A stretch of 33,906 nt of DNA from Spirochaetota bacterium (GCA_038043445.1 JBBTBY010000026.1:1-33906); one strand, 5' to 3'; positions 11,818 to 33,906 are shown, counted from the stretch's first letter. Made by a program: numbers and translations. The notes: a model not told the origin generated them from the letters alone.

Positions 11818-12840
11818 ATGAAACGATGTATGTTCATCGTAATGCTCGCGCTGGCCCTCGTCGGCATTTCATGCCTGCGTACCGACAATCCGTTCGCCCC
11901 GAACGGGACATCGCTTATGAAATATGGGCGAGGCCAATACATTTTCATGTCCACTTTTTCGAACGTATATCGCTGGGACTTGGCGACCGGCAATAATGTG
12001 AAAGGGGTTCTTACTACCAACGGATATGAATTCATCAGCCTTAATGTACAAGTATCAAAGGACGAAAGATATTTTTATACACTTGCACAAAAAACCGCGG
12101 CTGGATATATCGATCTGTATCGCTACAATATAGATGGTACCGGTGAGGAATTGATCCTCGCCGGCAGTGCTGCTTCCACTCCGAACCTTGTGTACCCATG
12201 CCCGAACGGCGATCTCATTATAAAAGAGATTACCGGTGTCAACTCCGAGACCATCGTCATCAATCCCTACTATGCCACAAAGCGCGACCTGATAGGCAGC
12301 AATATAAACGTGAGCGTTCCGCTTGCCGGCAAAGCCGCTTTTTACTATTCCACGAACATGGTCGGGAGCGGTCCGTATACCAATACCTATACGATAAAAA
12401 AATACGACCTTGCCGCGAAAACGACGGCAACAATAGCGACGATGGTGCTTGAGTTTTCAGCACCGCCGAACCCCGTATTTTCCATCGGCCCGTCACCGGA
12501 CGGCGATAAACTCCTCATCATCACGCAGACGAACAGTGCGAATTTTCTCGCGTATATGCTCGATGTGCGATCCGGCGCAGCGCCGGCCCTCATCGGATCG
12601 ATAACGAATTCCGTTTCCATCGGCTGGTCGCCGTATGCATCCCCTTTATATATGATAATGAGCGCAGGCGGGTATGAGATAGGACGCATATCGACAGCGA
12701 ATGCCGCCCTGACGAAGACGAAAGAATTCACGCTTGCATACGTCATGATGAAATGGCCGGTTTCAGACGCATTCGGAAAGATGTATCTCGTCAATACCAA
12801 TCTCGCCGCGCTCGGTGCAGCAGAAAGCATGATCGATTGA
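11818..12840 (+). CDS. Lipoprotein, probable beta-propeller
   Basis: A 340-residue protein starting at ATG 11818 behind an AGGGG site (a TTG two codons earlier is less likely). The N terminus MKRCMFIVMLALALVGISC has a hydrophobic core and a relaxed lipobox with Cys at residue 19, suggesting a lipid-anchored periplasmic protein. The mature part shows repeated blades of about 45 residues of the WD40-like/PD40 style: YRWDLATGN, YFYTLAQK...DLYRYNIDGTGEE, FSIGPSPDGDKLLIITQ and AYMLDVRSG. TolB-like propellers bind partner proteins in the periplasm; the partner here is unknown. No catalytic residues recognised. Confidence 0.62.
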   Translation: MKRCMFIVMLALALVGISCLRTDNPFAPNGTSLMKYGRGQYIFMSTFSNVYRWDLATGNNVKGVLTTNGYEFISLNVQVSKDERYFYTLAQKTAAGYIDLYRYNIDGTGEELILAGSAASTPNLVYPCPNGDLIIKEITGVNSETIVINPYYATKRDLIGSNINVSVPLAGKAAFYYSTNMVGSGPYTNTYTIKKYDLAAKTTATIATMVLEFSAPPNPVFSIGPSPDGDKLLIITQTNSANFLAYMLDVRSGAAPALIGSITNSVSIGWSPYASPLYMIMSAGGYEIGRISTANAALTKTKEFTLAYVMMKWPVSDAFGKMYLVNTNLAALGAAESMID

Positions 12841-12869
12841 ACGATGATAACGATAGTGAGGATACGGCA

Positions 12870-13691
12870 ATGAGGATACACTTCCTTTTCGCAATACTCG
12901 CGGCCTCCGTACTATCAGCGCGAACGATCGGCTATACTTCCATCGAGCGGACGGAAGGGTTCTCCGAAGCGCAGATCGAGCAGTTGAACGAGCGCATATT
13001 CTCGCGCCTTGTCGATAGCGGTTATATGCTCACGAACATCGGCGCTTTGCCGCGTACGGCTTCCGAAAGCGAAACGGCGAAAGCGTTCGGGAAGGCATAT
13101 GCACTGGATATGCTTTTCGTACAGACATTGATACGGGGCGACACGTATGAATACTCGTACCGCCTCCTCGGGGGCAGGCTCGGCGACCTCATTGCGGAGA
13201 AAACATTCTCCTTCACCGATTTCAGGACGCAATTCCCGTCGGTGCTCTCGGAGATAAAGAAGCGGTTGTCCGTCAATCTTGATCTCGATTTCGAGATGCC
13301 GACGAAAACGACAGCGGGAAAGCTGATGTTCGATACGCCCGATACGAAGACAGCGGCAAAGCTCGTCCTGCCGGAAACGCTTTCCGCCGACGCTTTCCTC
13401 ACGCGCGACGCGGTAACGCTCAACCTTTTTCATTCGGACCGTGTCGATTCCTACGGATGGATGACCGGCGGTTTCGTCTATTCCGCCATGGCGTTCGCTT
13501 TGACGGCCATCGGCCTCGGGGTCTACTACGGGATACGAACGCAGTCGCCGAACAATGACGCGAATGAGAACAACATTCTTCTCCTTGGCGGCTTTACCGC
13601 CGGTTTGGGTGTGTTCAATCTCATCATCGCCATCCCAAGCTTTATCGCGTACAATGATACGAACCGTTCGTATCAGTTGGTGCGAAAGTGA
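12870..13691 (+). CDS. Exported protein with LpoB/FlgT-like N-terminal region and two C-terminal membrane segments
   Basis: A 273-residue protein. Start ATG 12870 is preceded by GAGG and gives a signal peptide (MRIHFLFAILAASVLSA); longer upstream frames lack one. Residues 30-135 (EAQIEQLNERIFSRLVDSG, AKAFGKAYALDMLFVQTLIR) have the pattern of LpoB/CsgG-type domains that detect or organise envelope partners, comparable to the protein at 1-573. Two hydrophobic helices follow at about 197-221 and 236-260, joined by an Asn/Asp-rich loop. This resembles uncharacterised spirochaete envelope proteins in layout. Its 3' end overlaps the next gene by 4 bp if that gene starts at GTG. Function unknown. 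Confidence 0.62.
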   Translation: MRIHFLFAILAASVLSARTIGYTSIERTEGFSEAQIEQLNERIFSRLVDSGYMLTNIGALPRTASESETAKAFGKAYALDMLFVQTLIRGDTYEYSYRLLGGRLGDLIAEKTFSFTDFRTQFPSVLSEIKKRLSVNLDLDFEMPTKTTAGKLMFDTPDTKTAAKLVLPETLSADAFLTRDAVTLNLFHSDRVDSYGWMTGGFVYSAMAFALTAIGLGVYYGIRTQSPNNDANENNILLLGGFTAGLGVFNLIIAIPSFIAYNDTNRSYQLVRK

Positions 13692-14347
13692 GCCGCCCGA
13701 TGACACGATACGGCGCTCTCATCCTCGTTCTCCTCGCGGTGTTCGGCTGCGTTACGCCGCCGCGTCTTACCGTCGATGACAGCGGCTTTCTCGCCCGCGG
13801 TACCGTCATCGCCGTTGTGCCGGCTACCGATAATCTGAAAGCGATACTCGCCGCCGATCAGCTCCGCAATTATCTCGTCGTCAACGGCGAATGGAGGCTG
13901 CTCACCAAGACCGTGAGCGAAAAGACCTGCTATGACCGGGAATTCATCATATCCCCCGCAAGCATTGAGACATCCGACGCGTTCACGAACAACACCTTCA
14001 ATGCCGAAGCCGAAATATCAAAGCTCACGTCAGTAAAAGAGGTGCGGTATATCATCACCGTACGCCCGCTATCGGTGACGACCACGTATACGAGGAACAC
14101 GGACAGCCGCGGGCGCTCGACAACAACGGAAACGCTCGCTATCGAGTTCGATGTAAGCATACTCGCATCGCCCTCGGGCACGTCAGTATCGAAGATAAAG
14201 TTGAGCGGGAACGCGACAACGTTCTTCTCCGGCGGCGGCAATCTCTTCCTGAGCGACAAGAATAAAGCGAGCATAGTGGCGATCGACCGTTTCATCCAGA
14301 ACTATGCGCGCCAGGCGGTCGACCTGCAGCGCAATGCTTCCCGCTAA
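13688..14347 (+). CDS. Putative lipoprotein
   Basis: A 219-residue protein from GTG 13688 (GTGA overlap with the previous gene) or 215 from ATG 13700; neither has a strong ribosome site, so coupling is likely. The N terminus (MTRYGALILVLLAVFGC) is a lipoprotein signal with the Cys in AVFGC. The mature part, VIAVVPATDNLKAILAADQL ... VKEVRYIITVRPLSVTTTYT, has alternating strands and a variable Thr/Ser/Arg-rich loop (NTDSRGRSTTTET). The repeated occurrence of a conserved strand-helix-strand pattern suggests another member of the CsgG/LpoB-like group, but weakly. Last gene of the operon; it ends 6 bp from the converging oxidoreductase gene and no terminator hairpin is visible between them. Confidence 0.6.
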   Translation: MSRPMTRYGALILVLLAVFGCVTPPRLTVDDSGFLARGTVIAVVPATDNLKAILAADQLRNYLVVNGEWRLLTKTVSEKTCYDREFIISPASIETSDAFTNNTFNAEAEISKLTSVKEVRYIITVRPLSVTTTYTRNTDSRGRSTTTETLAIEFDVSILASPSGTSVSKIKLSGNATTFFSGGGNLFLSDKNKASIVAIDRFIQNYARQAVDLQRNASR

Positions 14348-24231: not shown

Positions 24232-26910
24232 CTAGAAGATGACGTTCAGGGAAAGGGTATAGCTTAGCCCGAACACTTCCTCATATTTCGCCGCGGCATC
24301 GATACGGCAGTTCATGAGGCCGATATCGAACATCACTGCGAGCCCGGCACCGACGTTGAGCATCGCGTTCACGCTGCCGATATTGTCGAGATAGGCGCCG
24401 GCGCGTACTTCAAAGAAGTCGAATATGCGGTACATGCTCCCGAACCCGATGCTGCTGTTCTCGAACGGCGAGTATCCGTAATGGAGATAAAGATAGAGGA
24501 GATTGTTCTCCACATTGATGAGATTGTAGTTCACATCGGCGCCGAACGATATCGGGAGGGGATCGCTTATCCCGCCGTAATTGTAGGGCAATCCGATATT
24601 CCTTCCGTACACGCCGAAGGCGAGCGTGTCCTTTTGTTCGTCGGTGCTGAGATAGATCATCTCCGTCACGAGCTTCTGCCACTCATAGTCCTTCATTTTG
24701 TCGGCCGTTTTCTTTTTCGCGAGCGCGACCTCGTCCGCCTTGTCAAGTGCGCTCTTCTCGACCTCCGCAGCGTACACGTCGTCGAGCTGGGCGAGCTTCT
24801 GCTTATTATCGCCGACGACCGACCGCGCGATAACGATGTCCTCAAGGGCGAGCTCGTTCTTTTTCGCATAGAGCGTTTCGATATCGGCTATCTGCCGTTT
24901 CCCCTTCCCTTCGGTCTCCGTCTTGAGCTGCTCGATGACCTCGCGCTTGGCCCGATAGATGCCGAGCAGAAGGTCGCCGAATATCACGCGTTCCTTGCTT
25001 TTGTATTCGCGCAGTCTGTCGCTTAAGCTCCCCGCATCGGCCGCGGTCATGAGGTCCAATTCCTTTTTGAGGCTTATCTTCTTCAGCTCGCGGAGCACAT
25101 CCGTCTCCCGCGCGGCGAGCGCGCTCACCTGCTGCGCAAAAATGTTCTTGAGCTCTATCTGTTTGCCGGCCGTTTCGACCGCTATCTGATCGCGATAATC
25201 GAACAGCGCCACCCGTTTCGCGAGCGATTTGATCACCTTGTCGAACAGGAGGCGTTCTACCGGCGGCATCTGGTATTTACCGAAATTCCCCATGGCACGC
25301 GATACGTTCTCGGAGAACATCCGCACACGCTCACGCTTCTGTTCGGTGACGTTCTCAAGCGGCAGTTTCAGGAACTGTCCCGCCTCCGCCTTCGCGTCCG
25401 GCTTCAGATTATTATAGCTGACGATGATCCTCGACTTCTCTTCGGTGCCGTACATCTTCCGCGCGATGGACTGATATGTCTCGTTCGTCTCAACACGGTA
25501 TTCCCGGTACCCGCGCATCTTCTCTTCCATTTCGCGCACTTTCAGCTCGCGCTCCCTGAGCGCTGCAAGATGCGCGCTGTCGGGCACTTTTATCGCATCA
25601 CCCTTCTTCACCCGCTCGGGGTTCTTCAGGGCATTGAACGCGATGAGGTACTTGACGAGATCGGCCGAGCCGTAGAATTTCTGCGCGACCGTGTTCCAGT
25701 TCTCCTTCTCGCCGAGCTCGTACGATTCCACCTTTACGCCAGTTGCATCCACCGGCGGAATGCCGGCGTCCTTGTTCGCGAGGAAATTCTCGTACTGCAC
25801 TATCAGCTGATCGACCTTGCCGAGGAGCTCCGTGTTCTTCGAATATTTCTCCAGTTTTTTCCGGTAGAAATCGATATCGACGCTGTTGTTCTCGATATCG
25901 CTCGCGGTTATCTTCGCCAGCGCCTCGCCGTTCTCCCGCACGGTATTGCTCGCGATGCCTATGAGCGATGCTATCTCGGCGGTCACGTTCGAGAGGAAGC
26001 TGCTCACATAGACCGCATCGATCTCGCGTTTCTGGTCGCGCGTGAACTCATAGAGCTTTGCCCGCGTCGCATAGACGTTCTTCACGTCCGCTTTCCGCTT
26101 CGCGTACCGGTCGTTCAGGTCCGTAAGCCCTGCCTGGCGCACGTTCTGATATTCCGCTTCCTTCGCGGTGATAGTCTCGGCCTTGAGCGTCTTGCTTTCT
26201 TTGATGCCGCGGTTCTTCGCGCGTATCTCGTCCTCGAGCAGCGCCGCCTGCACCGCACGCTCCGCTTCCACGTCCGCCTCGGTGATGAGCTGTTCGGGCA
26301 TACCGAGGTAGGGTGCCTTGAAACGCAACGTCATGTTCACATCGGCGAAGAACGTCCGCGCGGTGACATCGTCTATCGTCGATTGATAATAATTGAGGTT
26401 GACGCCGCCGGTGAACATATTGAGGAATTCAAAGAACCCGTTGCGGTTCGTCGGGTCGCTGTAGAGGTTGAGCCCATGCGAGCTGAACATGACGGGGATG
26501 CCGACCAGTATGTCGCTCGGGGTGAAATTCTGTATGACCTCGGCGCGCTCATTGCGTACGCCGAAACCGCCGTAGCCCAGGTACGTCGCATACGCACCGA
26601 AGCGCATGCCGCGGAGGAAATCGGCCTTGAGCCAGAAGAGCAGGTTCTCTGCGGCGATATCCTCGACAATGCCCTGATGGTGAAAGAATATCTCGGACTT
26701 ATCGCGTGTGCCGAATACGCTGCTGTATGTCCGGGACAGCGGGACATGCTGATCGAGGATGTCGTAGCACTTGCCCGTACCGATGACCATCGGCGCGCTG
26801 TCGTACACAAGGAGATCCGGCGAAGCGGCGAGCGGCTGAGCGGCTGTCAGCGCAGCGAACAAGGCGCCGAACGCCATCCGCAATGTTCCGTTGTATCGCA
26901 TCGTTTCCAT
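24232..26910 (-). CDS. Outer-membrane barrel protein with coiled-coil and two LysM domains inserted
   Basis: An 892-residue exported protein with signal peptide (about residues 4-29). Residues 31-200 look like the first half of a PorV/UPF0164-type outer-membrane barrel (FGAYATYLGYGGFGVRN, NFTPSDILVGIPV, FADVNMTLRFKA). Residues 205-380 are highly charged helix, probably coiled coil. Two LysM-like peptidoglycan-binding domains follow at about 394-444 (YELGEKENWNTVAQKFYG) and 471-517 (YRVETNETYQSIARKMYG), then more coiled coil to about 755. Residues 762-892 (FGVYGRNIGLPYNYGG ... YTLSLNVIF) return to barrel-like strands ending in Phe. I infer two barrel halves flanking a periplasmic wall-binding insert. 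It starts 2 nt after the giant gene, so is coupled to it; ATG 26901 is an alternative start. Exact family uncertain. Confidence 0.72.
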   Translation of the reverse strand: METMRYNGTLRMAFGALFAALTAAQPLAASPDLLVYDSAPMVIGTGKCYDILDQHVPLSRTYSSVFGTRDKSEIFFHHQGIVEDIAAENLLFWLKADFLRGMRFGAYATYLGYGGFGVRNERAEVIQNFTPSDILVGIPVMFSSHGLNLYSDPTNRNGFFEFLNMFTGGVNLNYYQSTIDDVTARTFFADVNMTLRFKAPYLGMPEQLITEADVEAERAVQAALLEDEIRAKNRGIKESKTLKAETITAKEAEYQNVRQAGLTDLNDRYAKRKADVKNVYATRAKLYEFTRDQKREIDAVYVSSFLSNVTAEIASLIGIASNTVRENGEALAKITASDIENNSVDIDFYRKKLEKYSKNTELLGKVDQLIVQYENFLANKDAGIPPVDATGVKVESYELGEKENWNTVAQKFYGSADLVKYLIAFNALKNPERVKKGDAIKVPDSAHLAALRERELKVREMEEKMRGYREYRVETNETYQSIARKMYGTEEKSRIIVSYNNLKPDAKAEAGQFLKLPLENVTEQKRERVRMFSENVSRAMGNFGKYQMPPVERLLFDKVIKSLAKRVALFDYRDQIAVETAGKQIELKNIFAQQVSALAARETDVLRELKKISLKKELDLMTAADAGSLSDRLREYKSKERVIFGDLLLGIYRAKREVIEQLKTETEGKGKRQIADIETLYAKKNELALEDIVIARSVVGDNKQKLAQLDDVYAAEVEKSALDKADEVALAKKKTADKMKDYEWQKLVTEMIYLSTDEQKDTLAFGVYGRNIGLPYNYGGISDPLPISFGADVNYNLINVENNLLYLYLHYGYSPFENSSIGFGSMYRIFDFFEVRAGAYLDNIGSVNAMLNVGAGLAVMFDIGLMNCRIDAAAKYEEVFGLSYTLSLNVIF

Positions 26911-26912
26911 AC

Positions 26913-29900
26913 CTATTTCTTCACTATCACTTTGACTTTCTTATTGTATCCATTGGGTCCGGTGATGATGCCCAGATAGAGCCCCGAGGGCGCCTTCACC
27001 CCGCCCATGGTCCCGTTCCATTCGGCGCTCTTGAACTCCGCGGTGAACGCATAATCGCCGATCTTATGCCCCATGGCGGTATAGATATGCAGCTTATAGC
27101 GCGGCAGGTCCTCGCTGCGTGTATCCTCCCTCAGGTAGACGATGAAACGTTCTCCGCGTTCCGGGTTGAAGAGCGTTTTCGTCGCAGCGCTTATCGCGTT
27201 CGCTTCCATGACGATGCCCGGCAATATCGTCGTTTCGCTCGTCGCATCCGGTGAGTAATCGTTCAGGGTGAGCGCATACTGCTGACCCTGGATATTGAGC
27301 GCCGCGAGGCCCGTCTGTTCGGATCTCCGCAGAACGAGCCGGAAACGGTCGCGTATCGTCGCATTGTCATGCATCTTCAATACGATAAGGAAGGGGCGGT
27401 CAACATTCGACAGTGCGACCGGCGTTTCAAAGAGTATCCGTATCTTATTGTCCGCTGCTATGGAGAACCCGCCGGGCACCAGACTGTCAGCGGCATCGAA
27501 CGATCCCGGGGATGTCCCGGTATCGAGATAGGTGGACACATTGCCGATGTCGTTGGTGGCCATGGCGGCGGCGAACGACGTTGCATTGCTTCCCTCGAGC
27601 GCCAGCGTGAACCCGTTGACGGAGAACACCGCATCATTATCGTTCGCGCGCATGGTAATGCGCATCGCCGCGATGCCGTTCTGCCCCTGTTTCACATACG
27701 TGGAGAGGAGCGATGACACGCTCGCGATGACGGCATTATTGTCGAGCGAGATCGGATAGACAGGATATGTCGAGAACAGCGAGGAGCGTTCGACGATGCC
27801 GCCGTTGGGGCCGCTCGCGGAAACGCGGACGATACGCAGTTCCGGCCGTGCCGCATCATTGAACGTAAGCGGGGTGAACGTGACGAAATAGCGGTCGGCG
27901 GTGGGCCGTACCGAATTCGTAATGGCGGGGAACAGTATGGTGACGACGGCATTGTCGTTCGAGATGAAGTAATTCGTTGAGATGGCGACGCCGGTCGAAT
28001 AATCGAAAGATGCCGTCGTATTGGTGTATATGCGGATGTATCCGGTGAACGGTACGTTCGTCGTGAGATTGGTGACCGTGATGCCGTACACCGTCTCGAC
28101 ATTGGCGCCTTCCGCTTCCCGGTACATATCGAACGCTGCGAGCGCGACCTGCACATTGGATATCGCCTGCACATTGCTCTGCGGATATACCTGATAGATG
28201 TACTGGTCCCAGAATTCCGCCGCAGGATCGACGACGATGATGTTGGTATACGGGAGCGGACCGTTGGTCATGCCGGTGGCGAAACCGAGCTGCGTATGCC
28301 CGTCATTGATCCTGTCCACGAACCGTATCGCGGCAGGATTCGCCCCTGCGGGTGCTATCTCAAGCCCCAAACGCTTCCCGATCATGGCGCCGACATTGTA
28401 ACCCACGAACACCGTCACCGCATTCGTCCCGGAGAGCACTATCGGGCTGTCAGCGAGGTCGAGCGTTACCCCGGCATCGTTGAAGTCGATCGCCGCGAGC
28501 GTGGTGCCGAGTTTCCCGCTGATCTTGTTTGTGGCCAGGTATACGGTGGTCGGGACATTGGCGTCCGGTGCAGCGGCATTACGTTTCACATCGACGTATC
28601 TGAGATAGTTCGTCGCATCATTGTCGTCCCCGGCGAGCGTGAACGCGATGTAGGGGTTCTTATCGCTCGATCCGTACACCGACGCGTCGATGAAGTCATT
28701 GGTCATCACGGTGACGACGACATTGTAGCTGTCGATGCGCATCACCTTCGACTGATAATCGAAGAGCGCGTTGGTGTTCTCAAAGACGTTCGTGCTGCCG
28801 GTATAGTAGAGATTGGTGATCTGGAATCCGATGCGGTCGTTCTTCGAAAGCGCTATGGTATTCGTGAGCTCGAAGACAAGATAGAATTTGTCCCCGAGGA
28901 AGGTGTTCGAGTTGTTGATCTGATCGGGCGTGCCGTCGGCGATGGTGCAGCGGATATCGAAGCTTCCCCCGGCGATGACATTGGTCCAGCCGACCAGGAT
29001 ATCCCCTGCGTCGTAGCGCGTCGATTCAAGCGATGTATTCGTGCTTTCGCGATAGAGGTATGCGATGCCGTCCACGTTCGAACTTATTGTTGACGTAAAG
29101 GTGCGCACCGCAACGCCGGTGAAGGCGTCGGCATCGTTCGTATCGTTATCGCCGTAGATGCGTATATATTCCGCCACGACCTTCTGGTTCGTGCCGAACG
29201 ATTCGGGCATATAGTTGTTCGTCGCGTCCTTCAGGTAAAAATCGAACGGATATGCCGCAAGGAGCGTGATGCGGTGATTCGATACCGACCCTGCCAGGGG
29301 AGATGCACCGGCGGCATTCGTTGCCGTCGCATTGGTCGGATAGAGCCCCCCGAGCCCGTCCGCGAAGGTAAGCGAACGTATGGCATTGGTAAGCTGCATG
29401 CCGATGGTGGCGGTGGGGGTGCCGGAGAATTTTATCTCGCACCCCACGAAGAACGTGTTCGTTCTCCCGGTCATCGGATACAGGGTCCCGAGCGAGACGA
29501 GCGCATTTTTTGTTGCATCGAAGTTCGCGAACCCGACGCTTGCGTCATTGGTGCTGTTGAACACCCCATCGCCGTCGATATCATGGAACACGCGCAATGC
29601 ACCGAGGTCGCCCATCGTCGCCGTGCCGGTGTTCGAAACGGCGATCGTAGAGAGGAAATTCGTCGCGTCGGGGTCATCGCTCAGTACGAGCACCTTCATA
29701 TTGTTGATGTATCCCGCCTGTACCGCCGGTGCATTGTTGCTCTCCATCGAGGCCGCATACACGCCCACGCGGTAATTATCCATTCTGCTCGCGATCGTCG
29801 GATTATAGCTGTTGGTGAATTTCAGGACATTGGTAACGATGGCGTTGGTGGGGCCGTCCGGGCCGATGCCGTGGATCATGGAGATGTACCCGTTCACCAG

Positions 29901-32900
29901 ATTGGTGTAGAGCCCTGCCGCGGCGCTGTTGGTCACCCGTAACGCAGCCCACAGGCGCGTCGGGTTCAACTGTACGCCGCTCAGATTGTTCTCGTTGAGT
30001 GACAGCGAGATGGGAAGGTTCGGGTTCGTGAAATTCGTTTTTGCGAGGAATTTCTCGTTCGTCTGGAAACCGTCTATCGCATTGGTCTCGCGATAGAGAT
30101 AGATCTCGCCCTGCACGTTCGAGCAGAACCCGCCGAGGCGCACATCGACATTGGTGATGCGCTGCGCGAACAGGTCCTCAAAGACATCGGCAATGAGATC
30201 GACAGAGGCGATGGGATAAATATTCGACACCGCCATCGACGCCGGTATGCCGAAATTGTTGCCGCCGTTGACGATATAGAAATCCCAGGGGTTGTTGAGG
30301 AACGATTTTATCGTGACATAATTCGTGGTCGAGGGACCGCTTGACGACCCGGCGATGTACGAATACTGCGCATAATTGTCGTCGATACCGTCCGTGAGCC
30401 CTATCGACCCGTTGGTGAGCAGAAGCCCGAAGGTGTTGCTGATGACCAATTCGCTGCCGCTCACGTCATAGCCGACGTAGAGTACCGTTTCATTGGTGCC
30501 GCTGACCGCGAGCGGGACGGAGAACGATATGCGCGTCTGCCCGTTGGTGAACGAATTGTACGAGAGCATGTTGTACGACGGATGGCTTAAGAGCTTGATG
30601 TACGGGATATGCCCGAGCGCAAAGCTCAGGTTCGACGCGTATCGGTTCGTCGTGACATCGATGTACGAGAGATAGTTGGTGCCGTCAGGATCATCGCCCG
30701 AAAGGCTTATCTTGAGATAGCGATTGTTGAACGAGGACTGCAGCGGATTGAGCGGGACCTGTTCATTCGATATGTAGTTCACCACCACGCGGCCGTTGTC
30801 GATGCGGGCAGTTCGGGAGAACGCATTGGTCAGGAGATAGAGATTGGTGAACGCCCCGAGATCGGGGCCCTGGCAGCGCATATTGGTCATCTGGAACCAG
30901 ACGGTGTTCGTTTTTGCGTCTTCAACGTTATTCGTGAGCCTGAATAGCAGATAGAACCTGTCGGGGGTATACTGATCGGAGGAAACATTCGTGAAATCGC
31001 AGTTGATCGAAAAATCAGCGCCTGCTGCAACTGCATTGCTCGCGATGAACTGATCGGCGGCGGAGAATGTGCCGTTGCCGTTCGTTTCCTTATAGAGATA
31101 GGCGTAGCCGTAGACATTCGCCTTGGATGTTATTGTCCCGACCTTGACATCGACCCCCTTGAATACCTGTATGTTCGTTTCCTCGGTATCCATGAAGATA
31201 TCGAACGAACCGGCAACGACGCCCTGATTGGAGGAGAAGCTTGCCGGCATCATGGAGTAGGTGAGCCCGTAGAGGGAGTAGTCGAACGGCCGCGAGGTAT
31301 AGGGGATGAGCCGGTTCGTCGCCGGGATATTCCCCATCGGGAACGTACCGATGATGACGGGTGCCGCGGGGGAGTGCTCGTCGCCGTACGGGTCGCCGAA
31401 GATAAGGTTGGACGCCGCGAGCACCTTGAGCGCCACCGTGCTTCCCACCGTGCCGTTGAGCTCGGTATCATATACGCCGTAAAACGTCTTTGCGGTCGTA
31501 TTGACGATCTCGAACGCCGGGAACACGGATAGCGAGTATAACTTTCCGCCGCTTATCGAGCCGGCCATGATGGACGGATCGGCGCCGACCTCAAGACCGT
31601 CATTATCCTGATCGTAAAAGAGCTTGAGATACCCTACATCGGTATTCGACGCCGTTCCGGAATTGGTGAGGACAAATCCCTGGAAATAATTGGTGGCATC
31701 GGGATCGTTGTTCGATATGACCATCCTGAACTGCAGGTTATTGAACGAGCCCTGTTTCACCCGCTCTTCGGTGGTATTGGTGTAGTAATATACGTAGAGC
31801 TGATGCGTATCGACGCGCGATATACGCAGATCGCCCGTGGTGATGGAGCCGGCATTTTCCACGAGCGTCGGTCCCGGGCCGGGGCCGGTCACCGTAATAT
31901 CGTTCACGCGGATGCGGACGGTATCCGAGTATATGGCCGAAGCGGTATTGGTTATCTGCATCGCCAGCCAATAGCGCGTGGGCGACAGCGGGTTTATCGA
32001 TTGATTCGTCTCCGGCACGGTGAACGCGTTGAAAACGTTCGTTGCTGACGTCGTCGATATGTTCAGCATTTTCACGAGCATTTCATTGGTGGTGAAATTG
32101 GTGCGCAGTCCGTTGGTATCGCGGTAGAGATACAGCTGCCCGCGGAGGTCGGTATAATTGCCCTCGAGGCATATCGTGGTCGAAAGCATCTCTTCCGTAA
32201 CACCCTCGCCGTCGCGTCGCACCTCGAAATAGCCCATCGGCACTATGTTCGATATGCCGAGCGAAACGGGGGCGGTATTGCCCGCGCTGATGACCATGAA
32301 ATCCCACGGATTGACGATGAGCGCCGGCATCACTTTGACGATCTGGTTTTTGTACGTTTCGTTCGTGAGCGTCGTCCCGTTGCTGAGCGCCTGCGATGTC
32401 GGCGTCGTTTTATCGACCCACGAACGCATGTTGGTGCCTGTGGTGTTCTCAAGCGGCGTACCCCATACCTCGAAGGAGATGACATCGAGCCCGCCGGGAT
32501 TGAACGATGCGCTTTCATTCGTATAATAGATCAAAATGCAGTTCGAACTTATGCCGGGGATTCCGTTCGTCACGAACACATTGCCGCTCTCGTTCGCGCC
32601 GAGAAGCACCGAATCGATATTGGATATCGCGCAATTGGTGAACATGTACGGTATCTCGATGGCCGCCTGCTTTATCGGCGAGGTGAAATTCGTTTTCGCC
32701 TGGATATAATACGTGAACGAATAATACGCGGCACCGATGGTTATCTGCCCGGGCTTCACGCTCCCGTACGCGCTCACCGGGCCGGAAGGCTCGCGCAGCG
32801 TCACGTTCTGCCCGCCCGTTGTCCGCTGCCACCCGCAGGTCGAGTAATTGCTCACCGCCCCCTGATTCGTTATCTTCGGATCGAACAGCGGCGCATCCAC

Positions 32901-33026
32901 CTTGGAAGAAAATGCAAATGTACCGATATTGCTGATGCCCGGGTGCATATCGGCGATCACCATGAAATTCTTGTGTTGTGTTGTGTCGTGTTCGTTGCGT
33001 TTATCATGGCGCCGAGGCGTATCCAC
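26913..33026 (-). CDS. Giant repeat surface protein, 3' (main) part, frameshifted from upstream part
   Basis: The frame is open for 2,037 codons but its possible starts (GTG 33026, ATG 32963) have no ribosome site or signal peptide, and the 5' part of the protein is in another frame (see 32957-33906). Numbering from 33026, five copies of a roughly 340-residue unit are seen: an opener NPWDF/RPFDY/NPWDFY/YPFDFY/AAEFWDQY at 239, 579, 912, 1259 and 1602, a LYLYRxTN phrase about 60 residues later, and a DDPDATNYL-like phrase at 440, 778, 1117, 1467 and 1796. It is rich in Asn and Thr. Residues about 1953-2037 resemble the FlgD Ig-like/C-terminal sorting domain (WNGTMGG, PSGLYLGI). Likely secreted and surface-exposed; substrate or partner unknown. 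Confidence 0.72.
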   Translation of the reverse strand: MDTPRRHDKRNEHDTTQHKNFMVIADMHPGISNIGTFAFSSKVDAPLFDPKITNQGAVSNYSTCGWQRTTGGQNVTLREPSGPVSAYGSVKPGQITIGAAYYSFTYYIQAKTNFTSPIKQAAIEIPYMFTNCAISNIDSVLLGANESGNVFVTNGIPGISSNCILIYYTNESASFNPGGLDVISFEVWGTPLENTTGTNMRSWVDKTTPTSQALSNGTTLTNETYKNQIVKVMPALIVNPWDFMVISAGNTAPVSLGISNIVPMGYFEVRRDGEGVTEEMLSTTICLEGNYTDLRGQLYLYRDTNGLRTNFTTNEMLVKMLNISTTSATNVFNAFTVPETNQSINPLSPTRYWLAMQITNTASAIYSDTVRIRVNDITVTGPGPGPTLVENAGSITTGDLRISRVDTHQLYVYYYTNTTEERVKQGSFNNLQFRMVISNNDPDATNYFQGFVLTNSGTASNTDVGYLKLFYDQDNDGLEVGADPSIMAGSISGGKLYSLSVFPAFEIVNTTAKTFYGVYDTELNGTVGSTVALKVLAASNLIFGDPYGDEHSPAAPVIIGTFPMGNIPATNRLIPYTSRPFDYSLYGLTYSMMPASFSSNQGVVAGSFDIFMDTEETNIQVFKGVDVKVGTITSKANVYGYAYLYKETNGNGTFSAADQFIASNAVAAGADFSINCDFTNVSSDQYTPDRFYLLFRLTNNVEDAKTNTVWFQMTNMRCQGPDLGAFTNLYLLTNAFSRTARIDNGRVVVNYISNEQVPLNPLQSSFNNRYLKISLSGDDPDGTNYLSYIDVTTNRYASNLSFALGHIPYIKLLSHPSYNMLSYNSFTNGQTRISFSVPLAVSGTNETVLYVGYDVSGSELVISNTFGLLLTNGSIGLTDGIDDNYAQYSYIAGSSSGPSTTNYVTIKSFLNNPWDFYIVNGGNNFGIPASMAVSNIYPIASVDLIADVFEDLFAQRITNVDVRLGGFCSNVQGEIYLYRETNAIDGFQTNEKFLAKTNFTNPNLPISLSLNENNLSGVQLNPTRLWAALRVTNSAAAGLYTNLVNGYISMIHGIGPDGPTNAIVTNVLKFTNSYNPTIASRMDNYRVGVYAASMESNNAPAVQAGYINNMKVLVLSDDPDATNFLSTIAVSNTGTATMGDLGALRVFHDIDGDGVFNSTNDASVGFANFDATKNALVSLGTLYPMTGRTNTFFVGCEIKFSGTPTATIGMQLTNAIRSLTFADGLGGLYPTNATATNAAGASPLAGSVSNHRITLLAAYPFDFYLKDATNNYMPESFGTNQKVVAEYIRIYGDNDTNDADAFTGVAVRTFTSTISSNVDGIAYLYRESTNTSLESTRYDAGDILVGWTNVIAGGSFDIRCTIADGTPDQINNSNTFLGDKFYLVFELTNTIALSKNDRIGFQITNLYYTGSTNVFENTNALFDYQSKVMRIDSYNVVVTVMTNDFIDASVYGSSDKNPYIAFTLAGDDNDATNYLRYVDVKRNAAAPDANVPTTVYLATNKISGKLGTTLAAIDFNDAGVTLDLADSPIVLSGTNAVTVFVGYNVGAMIGKRLGLEIAPAGANPAAIRFVDRINDGHTQLGFATGMTNGPLPYTNIIVVDPAAEFWDQYIYQVYPQSNVQAISNVQVALAAFDMYREAEGANVETVYGITVTNLTTNVPFTGYIRIYTNTTASFDYSTGVAISTNYFISNDNAVVTILFPAITNSVRPTADRYFVTFTPLTFNDAARPELRIVRVSASGPNGGIVERSSLFSTYPVYPISLDNNAVIASVSSLLSTYVKQGQNGIAAMRITMRANDNDAVFSVNGFTLALEGSNATSFAAAMATNDIGNVSTYLDTGTSPGSFDAADSLVPGGFSIAADNKIRILFETPVALSNVDRPFLIVLKMHDNATIRDRFRLVLRRSEQTGLAALNIQGQQYALTLNDYSPDATSETTILPGIVMEANAISAATKTLFNPERGERFIVYLREDTRSEDLPRYKLHIYTAMGHKIGDYAFTAEFKSAEWNGTMGGVKAPSGLYLGIITGPNGYNKKVKVIVKK

Positions 33027-33906
33027 AGCTCATTGCCGTTCGTGCGAAGTACACATTCACCGCGGTTGATATAGCGATTGCGCGTATTCGTGAAGTCGGC
33101 ATAGGAAACATTGGTGTTCGTCTCAATAAGCGTGCCGTCTTCCATGTAATCGGAAATAACATACACCTTGGATGTGTCCCATCCGTAATTGCTCCATGCG
33201 TCGGGCTTCGATATGGTGATCACATTGATGCCCGCATTCGAAGCGTAGATGCCGTTCGCAAAATTGAACTGCAGCCTTCGAAGATCGGTGGAATTCGAAC
33301 TTTGGTCCTCCGAATCGATCGATACGCTCATTGCAGATGAATCGGCGGCCGAGCGTATCATGAAGGAGCCGAACCGTGCATCACAGGACGAGTTCTTGTT
33401 GCGCACTTCCTCGTTTATCATAAAACGGATATTGTTCGTGAACGATACCGGGAAATTTCCGACAAAACAGTACTCATTCGGGTGGGCGTCATTGTTGTCG
33501 GGGTCGGGGTTGAAATAGAACGACACCGAGGACCCGTCATGCGTCGCCATGAGCGCGACATTCGTGTTCACTATAGTGCCGACCGTCACATTCACGGTAA
33601 GCGAATGGAAATTTGCAAGATTCGTTGCTGACCCGTCCGGGCGTATCGCATTCGACAGATTGAGCTTGATATCCGCGCCATTGACAAATGCCCCGAAAAA
33701 GTTATCCGGGGTGTCCCCATTCTTTGCTGAATAGAAATACATCACCCGTGTAAGGAACGCCATGTAATTGGCATTGTAGAGCGAAAGGTCGGTAAGGGCG
33801 TCTTCAACGACCCATAATCCGAAATCTGCAGCCTCAACAACGGGACTCGCCCCGTTCGCAGAAATAGTCCATCCGCGGACATCGAGCATCGCCCCGACGG
33901 GGATGG
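32957..33906 (-). CDS. Giant repeat surface protein, 5' part (start outside window; frameshifted)
   Basis: The frame enters from beyond the window edge (PVGAMLDVRGWTISANG) and runs about 316 codons to TGA at 32957-32959. The sequence (SFYFNPDPDNNDAHPNEY, MIRSAADSSAMSVSIDSED, WIRLGAMINATNTTQH) has the same Asn/Ser/Thr-rich secreted character as the next frame. It overlaps that frame by 70 bp. Removing one 5-bp unit of the repeat tract at 32973-32992 would join them as NTTQHKNFMVIADMHPG, a sensible continuation. I therefore take this as the 5' part of one gene of at least about 2,300 codons, interrupted by an indel, a phase-variable repeat, a programmed +1 shift or a sequence error. The signal peptide should lie outside the window. 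Confidence 0.68.
   Translation of the reverse strand, partial: IPVGAMLDVRGWTISANGASPVVEAADFGLWVVEDALTDLSLYNANYMAFLTRVMYFYSAKNGDTPDNFFGAFVNGADIKLNLSNAIRPDGSATNLANFHSLTVNVTVGTIVNTNVALMATHDGSSVSFYFNPDPDNNDAHPNEYCFVGNFPVSFTNNIRFMINEEVRNKNSSCDARFGSFMIRSAADSSAMSVSIDSEDQSSNSTDLRRLQFNFANGIYASNAGINVITISKPDAWSNYGWDTSKVYVISDYMEDGTLIETNTNVSYADFTNTRNRYINRGECVLRTNGNELWIRLGAMINATNTTQHNTRISW
32973..32992 (-). repeat. Pentanucleotide tandem repeat at the frameshift
   Basis: Read on the minus strand, the unit AACAC occurs four times in tandem with one variant (AACAC, GACAC, AACAC, AACAC). Because the unit is 5 bp, loss or gain of one copy changes the reading frame. It sits inside the 70-bp overlap of the two frames of the giant gene. 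Confidence 0.8.

Follow-up and report, generated by a model that had tools for sequence, protein, structure and literature searches.

The two genes at one end of the window, by which we mean the whole 33906-base stretch of DNA that was analysed, probably encode a giant surface protein as cargo and its dedicated shuttle and anchor in an export route of Spirochaetota resembling the type 9 secretion system (T9SS); we give this reading a probability of about 0.7. The pair is best described as a T9SS variant in a phylum where TXSScan, which found T9SS only in Bacteroidetes, detected none (PMC4793230).

In the mechanism we propose, the giant would be a secreted, stalk-like surface protein, presumably an adhesin, built of repeats of about 335 aa and ending in a C-terminal sorting domain (CTD). 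It would enter the periplasm, probably via Sec, and would cross the outer membrane through a SprA-like translocon whose gene lies at another locus of the genome. The emerging CTD would then be caught by a dedicated PorV-type barrel, the product of the next gene, whose coiled-coil/LysM arm, placed at a presumed periplasmic turn, would tie the captured giant through the outer membrane to peptidoglycan.

Gene Organization and Conservation

The window is the whole of contig C26 of the source genome (G000), which comprises 5.13 Mb in 178 contigs; among named records, the closest relatives of that genome are Spirochaetota MAGs. The left part of the window carries ordinary metabolic and cell-wall genes. 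The initial annotation had placed the giant gene and the LysM-barrel gene 2 nt apart on the minus strand, and this can be read directly from the sequence: the giant ends with ...AAATAG, followed by GT and by the ATG of the barrel gene. All features of the pair given below by window coordinates lie on the same minus strand.

The LysM barrel is carried by only 4 of the 392 Spirochaetota genomes searched, and a CTD giant stands directly upstream, on the same strand, at all eight LysM-barrel loci of these four genomes (C26 and C167 in G000, two at C16 and one at C15 in G001, one in G040 and two partial ones in G070). The conservation in relatives that had been proposed as a check of the pair was thus borne out, with no LysM barrel found apart from its giant. 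G001 (JACRPF01) is a Spirochaetota MAG of the same GTDB family as the source genome, and G040 (JAFLEE01) is a Spirochaetota MAG of a different family. When best matches were compared between G000 and G001, barrel and CTD pointed to the same partner pair, both for C26/C16a and for C167/C16b. At C167, two tandem CTD genes (L008:9992-12100, 12102-14120) precede one 1176-aa PorV-type barrel gene, and this tandem set adjoins the second LysM pair of G000.

The Giant Protein and Its Sorting Domain

The gene had been presented as that of a giant, CTD-ending repeat protein. Repeats and CTD were both recovered, the latter weak alone and strong as a family, but the ORF as given is incomplete and frame-broken. 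The 3' part (26913-33026) encodes 2037 aa in its frame, and alignment to an intact relative places the preceding part of the same protein in another frame (32957-33904). Residues 30-311 of the upstream-frame protein P0003 correspond to residues 142-425 of an intact 3110-aa homologue from G001, with 44% identity, and the giant ORF P0002, from its residue 14, takes over at residue 419 of the same homologue. Because the other frame encodes the preceding part, the GTG at 33026 is, judging from the sequence, not the true start of the giant and the gene continues further upstream; the contig end (33906) falls inside this gene, which is incomplete and runs off the contig. The frame break coincides with a (CACAA)3 tract (32971-32985), the sole perfect triple pentamer in the window, none being present in 218 kb of other source-genome sequence. 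The frameshift may reflect slippage, phase variation or equally an assembly error of the MAG, so the phase variation suggested earlier is unproven. We counted the broken frame of the giant in this assembly against our preferred explanation.

In the ORF, a unit HMM resolved five degenerate copies of a repeat of about 335 aa (27201-32312), where BLAST self-comparison had shown none, and Pfam offered no model for the repeats or for the N-terminal region. With the same HMM, the count rises to as many as seven or eight full repeats in intact homologues and is about one in shorter members of the family. A signal peptide is present in the intact relatives of the giant. The N-terminal region of the giants also contains a conserved TCGWQ motif (STCGWQ, residues ~60-67 of the window giant), and this motif ends, or nearly ends, two ORFs lying upstream of the giant in G040 (L024:14062-15909 and L024:15910-17844); it possibly marks a domain boundary.

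The CTD of the window giant (26913-27194), of T9SS/FlgD-Ig type, is supported by family alignments and a family profile. By itself it is weak, with CHU_C matched at 0.0036, which counts against our explanation. Since Por_Secre_tail (PF18962) gave no match in the source genome, a family-specific CTD profile was built. At E-values up to 0.1, the type A sorting domain model TIGR04183 matched 42 of 44 CTDs, the PorZ model 32 and the PorU model 26, against only 2 for the type B model TIGR04131 (best 0.014). Compared with the PDB, the family profile retrieved the CTDs of PorZ (5.7e-10) and PorU (2.1e-9) and the SprA-bound CTD 8glk_D (2.6e-4).

Architecture of the Barrel Protein

The next gene (24232-26910) encodes an 892-aa PorV-type outer-membrane barrel carrying a coiled-coil/LysM insertion. 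In an alignment of six family members, the protein falls into two barrel halves, N-terminal and C-terminal, separated by a long alpha-helical/LysM insertion. These were positioned on the columns of a canonical set of 16 PorV-type barrels from three genomes (G000, G001 and G040). The N-terminal half of the window protein (residues 30-210, 26281-26823; about 6 strands) is conserved in the family alignment and gave a weak colinear profile match with canonical columns 153-187, a weakness that counts against our explanation. The C-terminal half (residues 755-892, 24235-24648; about 8 strands, ending in Phe) was aligned by hhalign to columns 189-317 with a probability of 97.8 and an E-value of 7.8e-13. 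Because one half reaches column 187 and the other resumes at 189, the insertion (residues 211-744, 24679-26280; predicted coiled coil plus LysM) sits at one turn of the barrel. With about 8 strands following it and a terminal Phe, strand-parity counting by inspection suggests that this turn would be periplasmic if the C-terminus is.

It had been anticipated that the barrel would match PorV/UPF0164 profiles. The PorV side of this expectation held, the window barrel matching NF033709 (PorV/PorQ family) at 5.3e-5, below the curated cut-off, in two stretches, one of them at residues 758-813 in the strongly aligned C-terminal half; the UPF0164 side failed, with no match to PF03687 in the six LysM barrels. 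No PorP/SprF model of NCBIfam matched the window barrel. The LysM domain (residues 471-517, 25360-25500) was matched by Pfam PF01476 at 9e-4, just under the Pfam cut-off; five of the six family members have a Pfam LysM match, and the profile of the LysM-barrel family retrieved the LysM protein Kbp from the PDB at 8.9e-8. Another LysM-like stretch, at residues 396-456, has no Pfam match and we therefore claim only one LysM.

Genome-Wide Pairing of CTD and Barrel Genes

The association extends beyond the LysM barrels. In the three genomes, 29 of the 38 PorV-type barrels inspected, LysM pairs included, are immediately preceded by a CTD gene: 12/16 in G000 (with a weak case, C45), 10/14 in G001 and 7/8 of those inspected in G040. 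The gaps between the two genes are mostly of -4 to +100 nt. NF033709 has matches in all three genomes, above its cut-off in two. Searching these genomes with a profile of the six CTDs from LysM pairs brought up another 31 CTDs, 11 of them directly upstream of a PorV-type barrel, the chance expectation being well under one (an estimate for ~40 barrels scattered among ~14,000 genes). The similarities of CTDs and of barrels also covary over 27 pairs (Mantel r 0.54, p 2e-4) and in G001 alone (r 0.67, p 4e-4). The corresponding value for G000 alone was not significant (r 0.24, p 0.10) and counts against our explanation, as do the many CTD genes of G001 and G040 that lack an adjoining barrel. In its favour we counted an unpaired protein of G000 (C78, L070:4508-7267), in which a PorV-type barrel, FlgD-Ig/CTD-like, Ig-like and OmpA peptidoglycan-binding domains are fused, so that barrel, CTD-like and wall-binding parts form a single polypeptide.

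One of the 11 adjoining barrels (C75, L073:7780-8343) is a 187-aa UPF0164/PorV-like fragment following its CTD gene and may be a frame-broken barrel. The remaining further CTD genes are solo, mostly in G001, and their products there may use a general shuttle. Some neighbours of these solo genes of G001 (L118-L131) resemble carbohydrate-active or surface enzymes.

A SprA-Like Translocon in Spirochaetota

The initial annotation called for PorU/SprA-like genes to be sought elsewhere in the genome. SprA_N (PF14349) had no match in the three genomes and suggested that the translocon was absent, a view overturned by matches to TIGR04189 (SprA/Sov) and to spirochaete profiles. Of the 296 Spirochaetota genomes sampled, 82 have a TIGR04189 match, with a best E-value of 4.7e-30 and none exceeding the curated cut-off of 200 bits. 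Scored as whole proteins, the SprA-like sequences of G001 (2205 aa), G040 (2289 aa) and G074 reached 5.7e-21, 1.9e-32 and 1.1e-48, respectively. In the source genome, a profile built from the G001, G040 and G070 proteins located a homologue at C116:13-4404, unlinked to the window gene pair. It lacks its N-terminal third, cut by the contig edge, and TIGR04189 missed this genome probably because the best-conserved part is off the contig. A seven-sequence spirochaete SprA profile matched SprA of F. johnsoniae (6h3i) at 7.1e-31, the three-sequence profile having had no PDB match. Among genomes having at least three PorV-family matches, most were SprA-positive (24 vs 4, p 3e-11, a statistic that ignores relatedness), barrels being scored on up to seven candidates per genome.

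The search for a PorU-type (C25) peptidase, run without a positive control, gave no match in the three genomes, which counts against our explanation. With a SprA-like translocon encoded in the same genome, the idea that the gene pair forms a minimal exporter had to be given up. On balance, we lean towards Spirochaetota having a type 9 secretion branch of their own, comprising a translocon of the SprA family, many PorV-type shuttles each specific to its cargo, a wall anchor inside the barrel polypeptide in one lineage and possibly no PorU sortase.

SprA-like proteins of about 1900-2050 aa are present in many spirochaetes that have only one to a few PorV-type barrels (for example L108:3931-9930, L109:4494-10667 and L111:2769-8678). 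A small STAS-domain-like gene (~112-147 aa) adjoins the sprA-like gene at three of the loci read.

Alternative Explanations

FlgD Ig-like domains resemble CTDs, which itself counts against our reading, and the CTD might accordingly be a mere FlgD-like Ig fold, the adjoining barrel being an unrelated UPF0164-type porin kept by operon inertia. This would agree with the FlgD_ig matches in Pfam (30/44 CTDs) and with the match of the CTD profile to FlgD in the PDB at 1.5e-6. We consider it improbable, for the T9SS CTDs of PorZ and PorU are matched more strongly than FlgD, the pairing of CTD and barrel genes recurs at many unrelated loci and the similarities of the two partners covary.

The barrel could also be only an anchor or surface dock, with the giant crossing the outer membrane otherwise and the SprA homologue serving other cargo. 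The lack of linkage between the SprA gene and the pair, the many CTD genes without an adjacent barrel, the LysM domain, which suggests a static anchor, and the PorP-PG1035 association, known mainly as anchorage (PMC9143113), are all in keeping with such a role. It is nevertheless unlikely, given that the CTDs, as a family, match cargo of SprA-based secretion and that SprA co-occurs with multi-barrel genomes. That the barrel exports the giant by itself, with no need of a translocon, is suggested by the tight two-gene unit and its 2-nt gap, but it is highly improbable: PorV-type barrels of about 14 strands act as shuttles and not as pores in known systems, and a SprA-like translocon is encoded in the same genome. 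A role as shuttle and anchor is more likely for the barrel than one as the actual export pore. The earlier proposal that it docks, exports or anchors the giant was strengthened for docking and anchoring by the genome-wide pairing and weakened for export.

Relation to Known Systems

The closest parallels to a cargo with its own shuttle and anchor come from Bacteroidota. Type B CTD proteins there rely on SprF-like shuttles whose genes follow immediately downstream (PMC12618676), and in P. gingivalis the peptidoglycan-binding PorE makes up a single complex with the barrel PorP and the type B CTD protein PG1035 (PMC9143113). Like the PorE-PorP-PG1035 complex and the type B CTD/SprF-like pairs of F. 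johnsoniae, the window pair combines a CTD-ended surface protein with a dedicated barrel encoded directly downstream, and in each case a wall-binding part is proposed to provide the link to peptidoglycan. It differs from them in its PorV-family rather than PorP/SprF barrel, its type A-like CTD and its phylum, and in having the LysM built into the barrel protein, PorE being a separate protein. Because barrel family and CTD type differ, the window pair would work by a similar logic without being a member of these systems. With PorV and the type A CTDs of T9SS, it has in common a PorV-family barrel, CTDs matching TIGR04183 and a SprA homologue. In Bacteroidota, a single PorV handles every type A substrate, unlike the three spirochaete genomes searched, where there are many barrels, each paired with one CTD gene, and no PorU sortase match.

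A 2024 review places T9SS in the Fibrobacteres-Bacteroidetes-Chlorobi group (PMC11205867), and no report of T9SS in spirochaetes was found in the literature searched, a scope outside which most subscription journals and preprints fall. If our reading is true, the SprA-family translocon, CTD cargo and paired PorV-type shuttles of spirochaetes would widen the range of T9SS, and the pairs would constitute a natural experiment on the matching of cargo to shuttle. A shuttle with a built-in peptidoglycan anchor would also support the idea of anchoring through PorE-PorP, since their fusion in one gene implies that both functions work jointly. For uncultured spirochaetes, the model predicts how giant surface proteins would be displayed.

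The UPF0164/FadL-like barrels of Treponema are a related family from the same phylum, and one of the paired barrels has a weak UPF0164 match; to our knowledge, neither a CTD partner nor a LysM insertion has been described for them. Finally, G041, G053 and G063 each presented 61-82 PorV-family barrel candidates at first look, far above the other Spirochaetota genomes.
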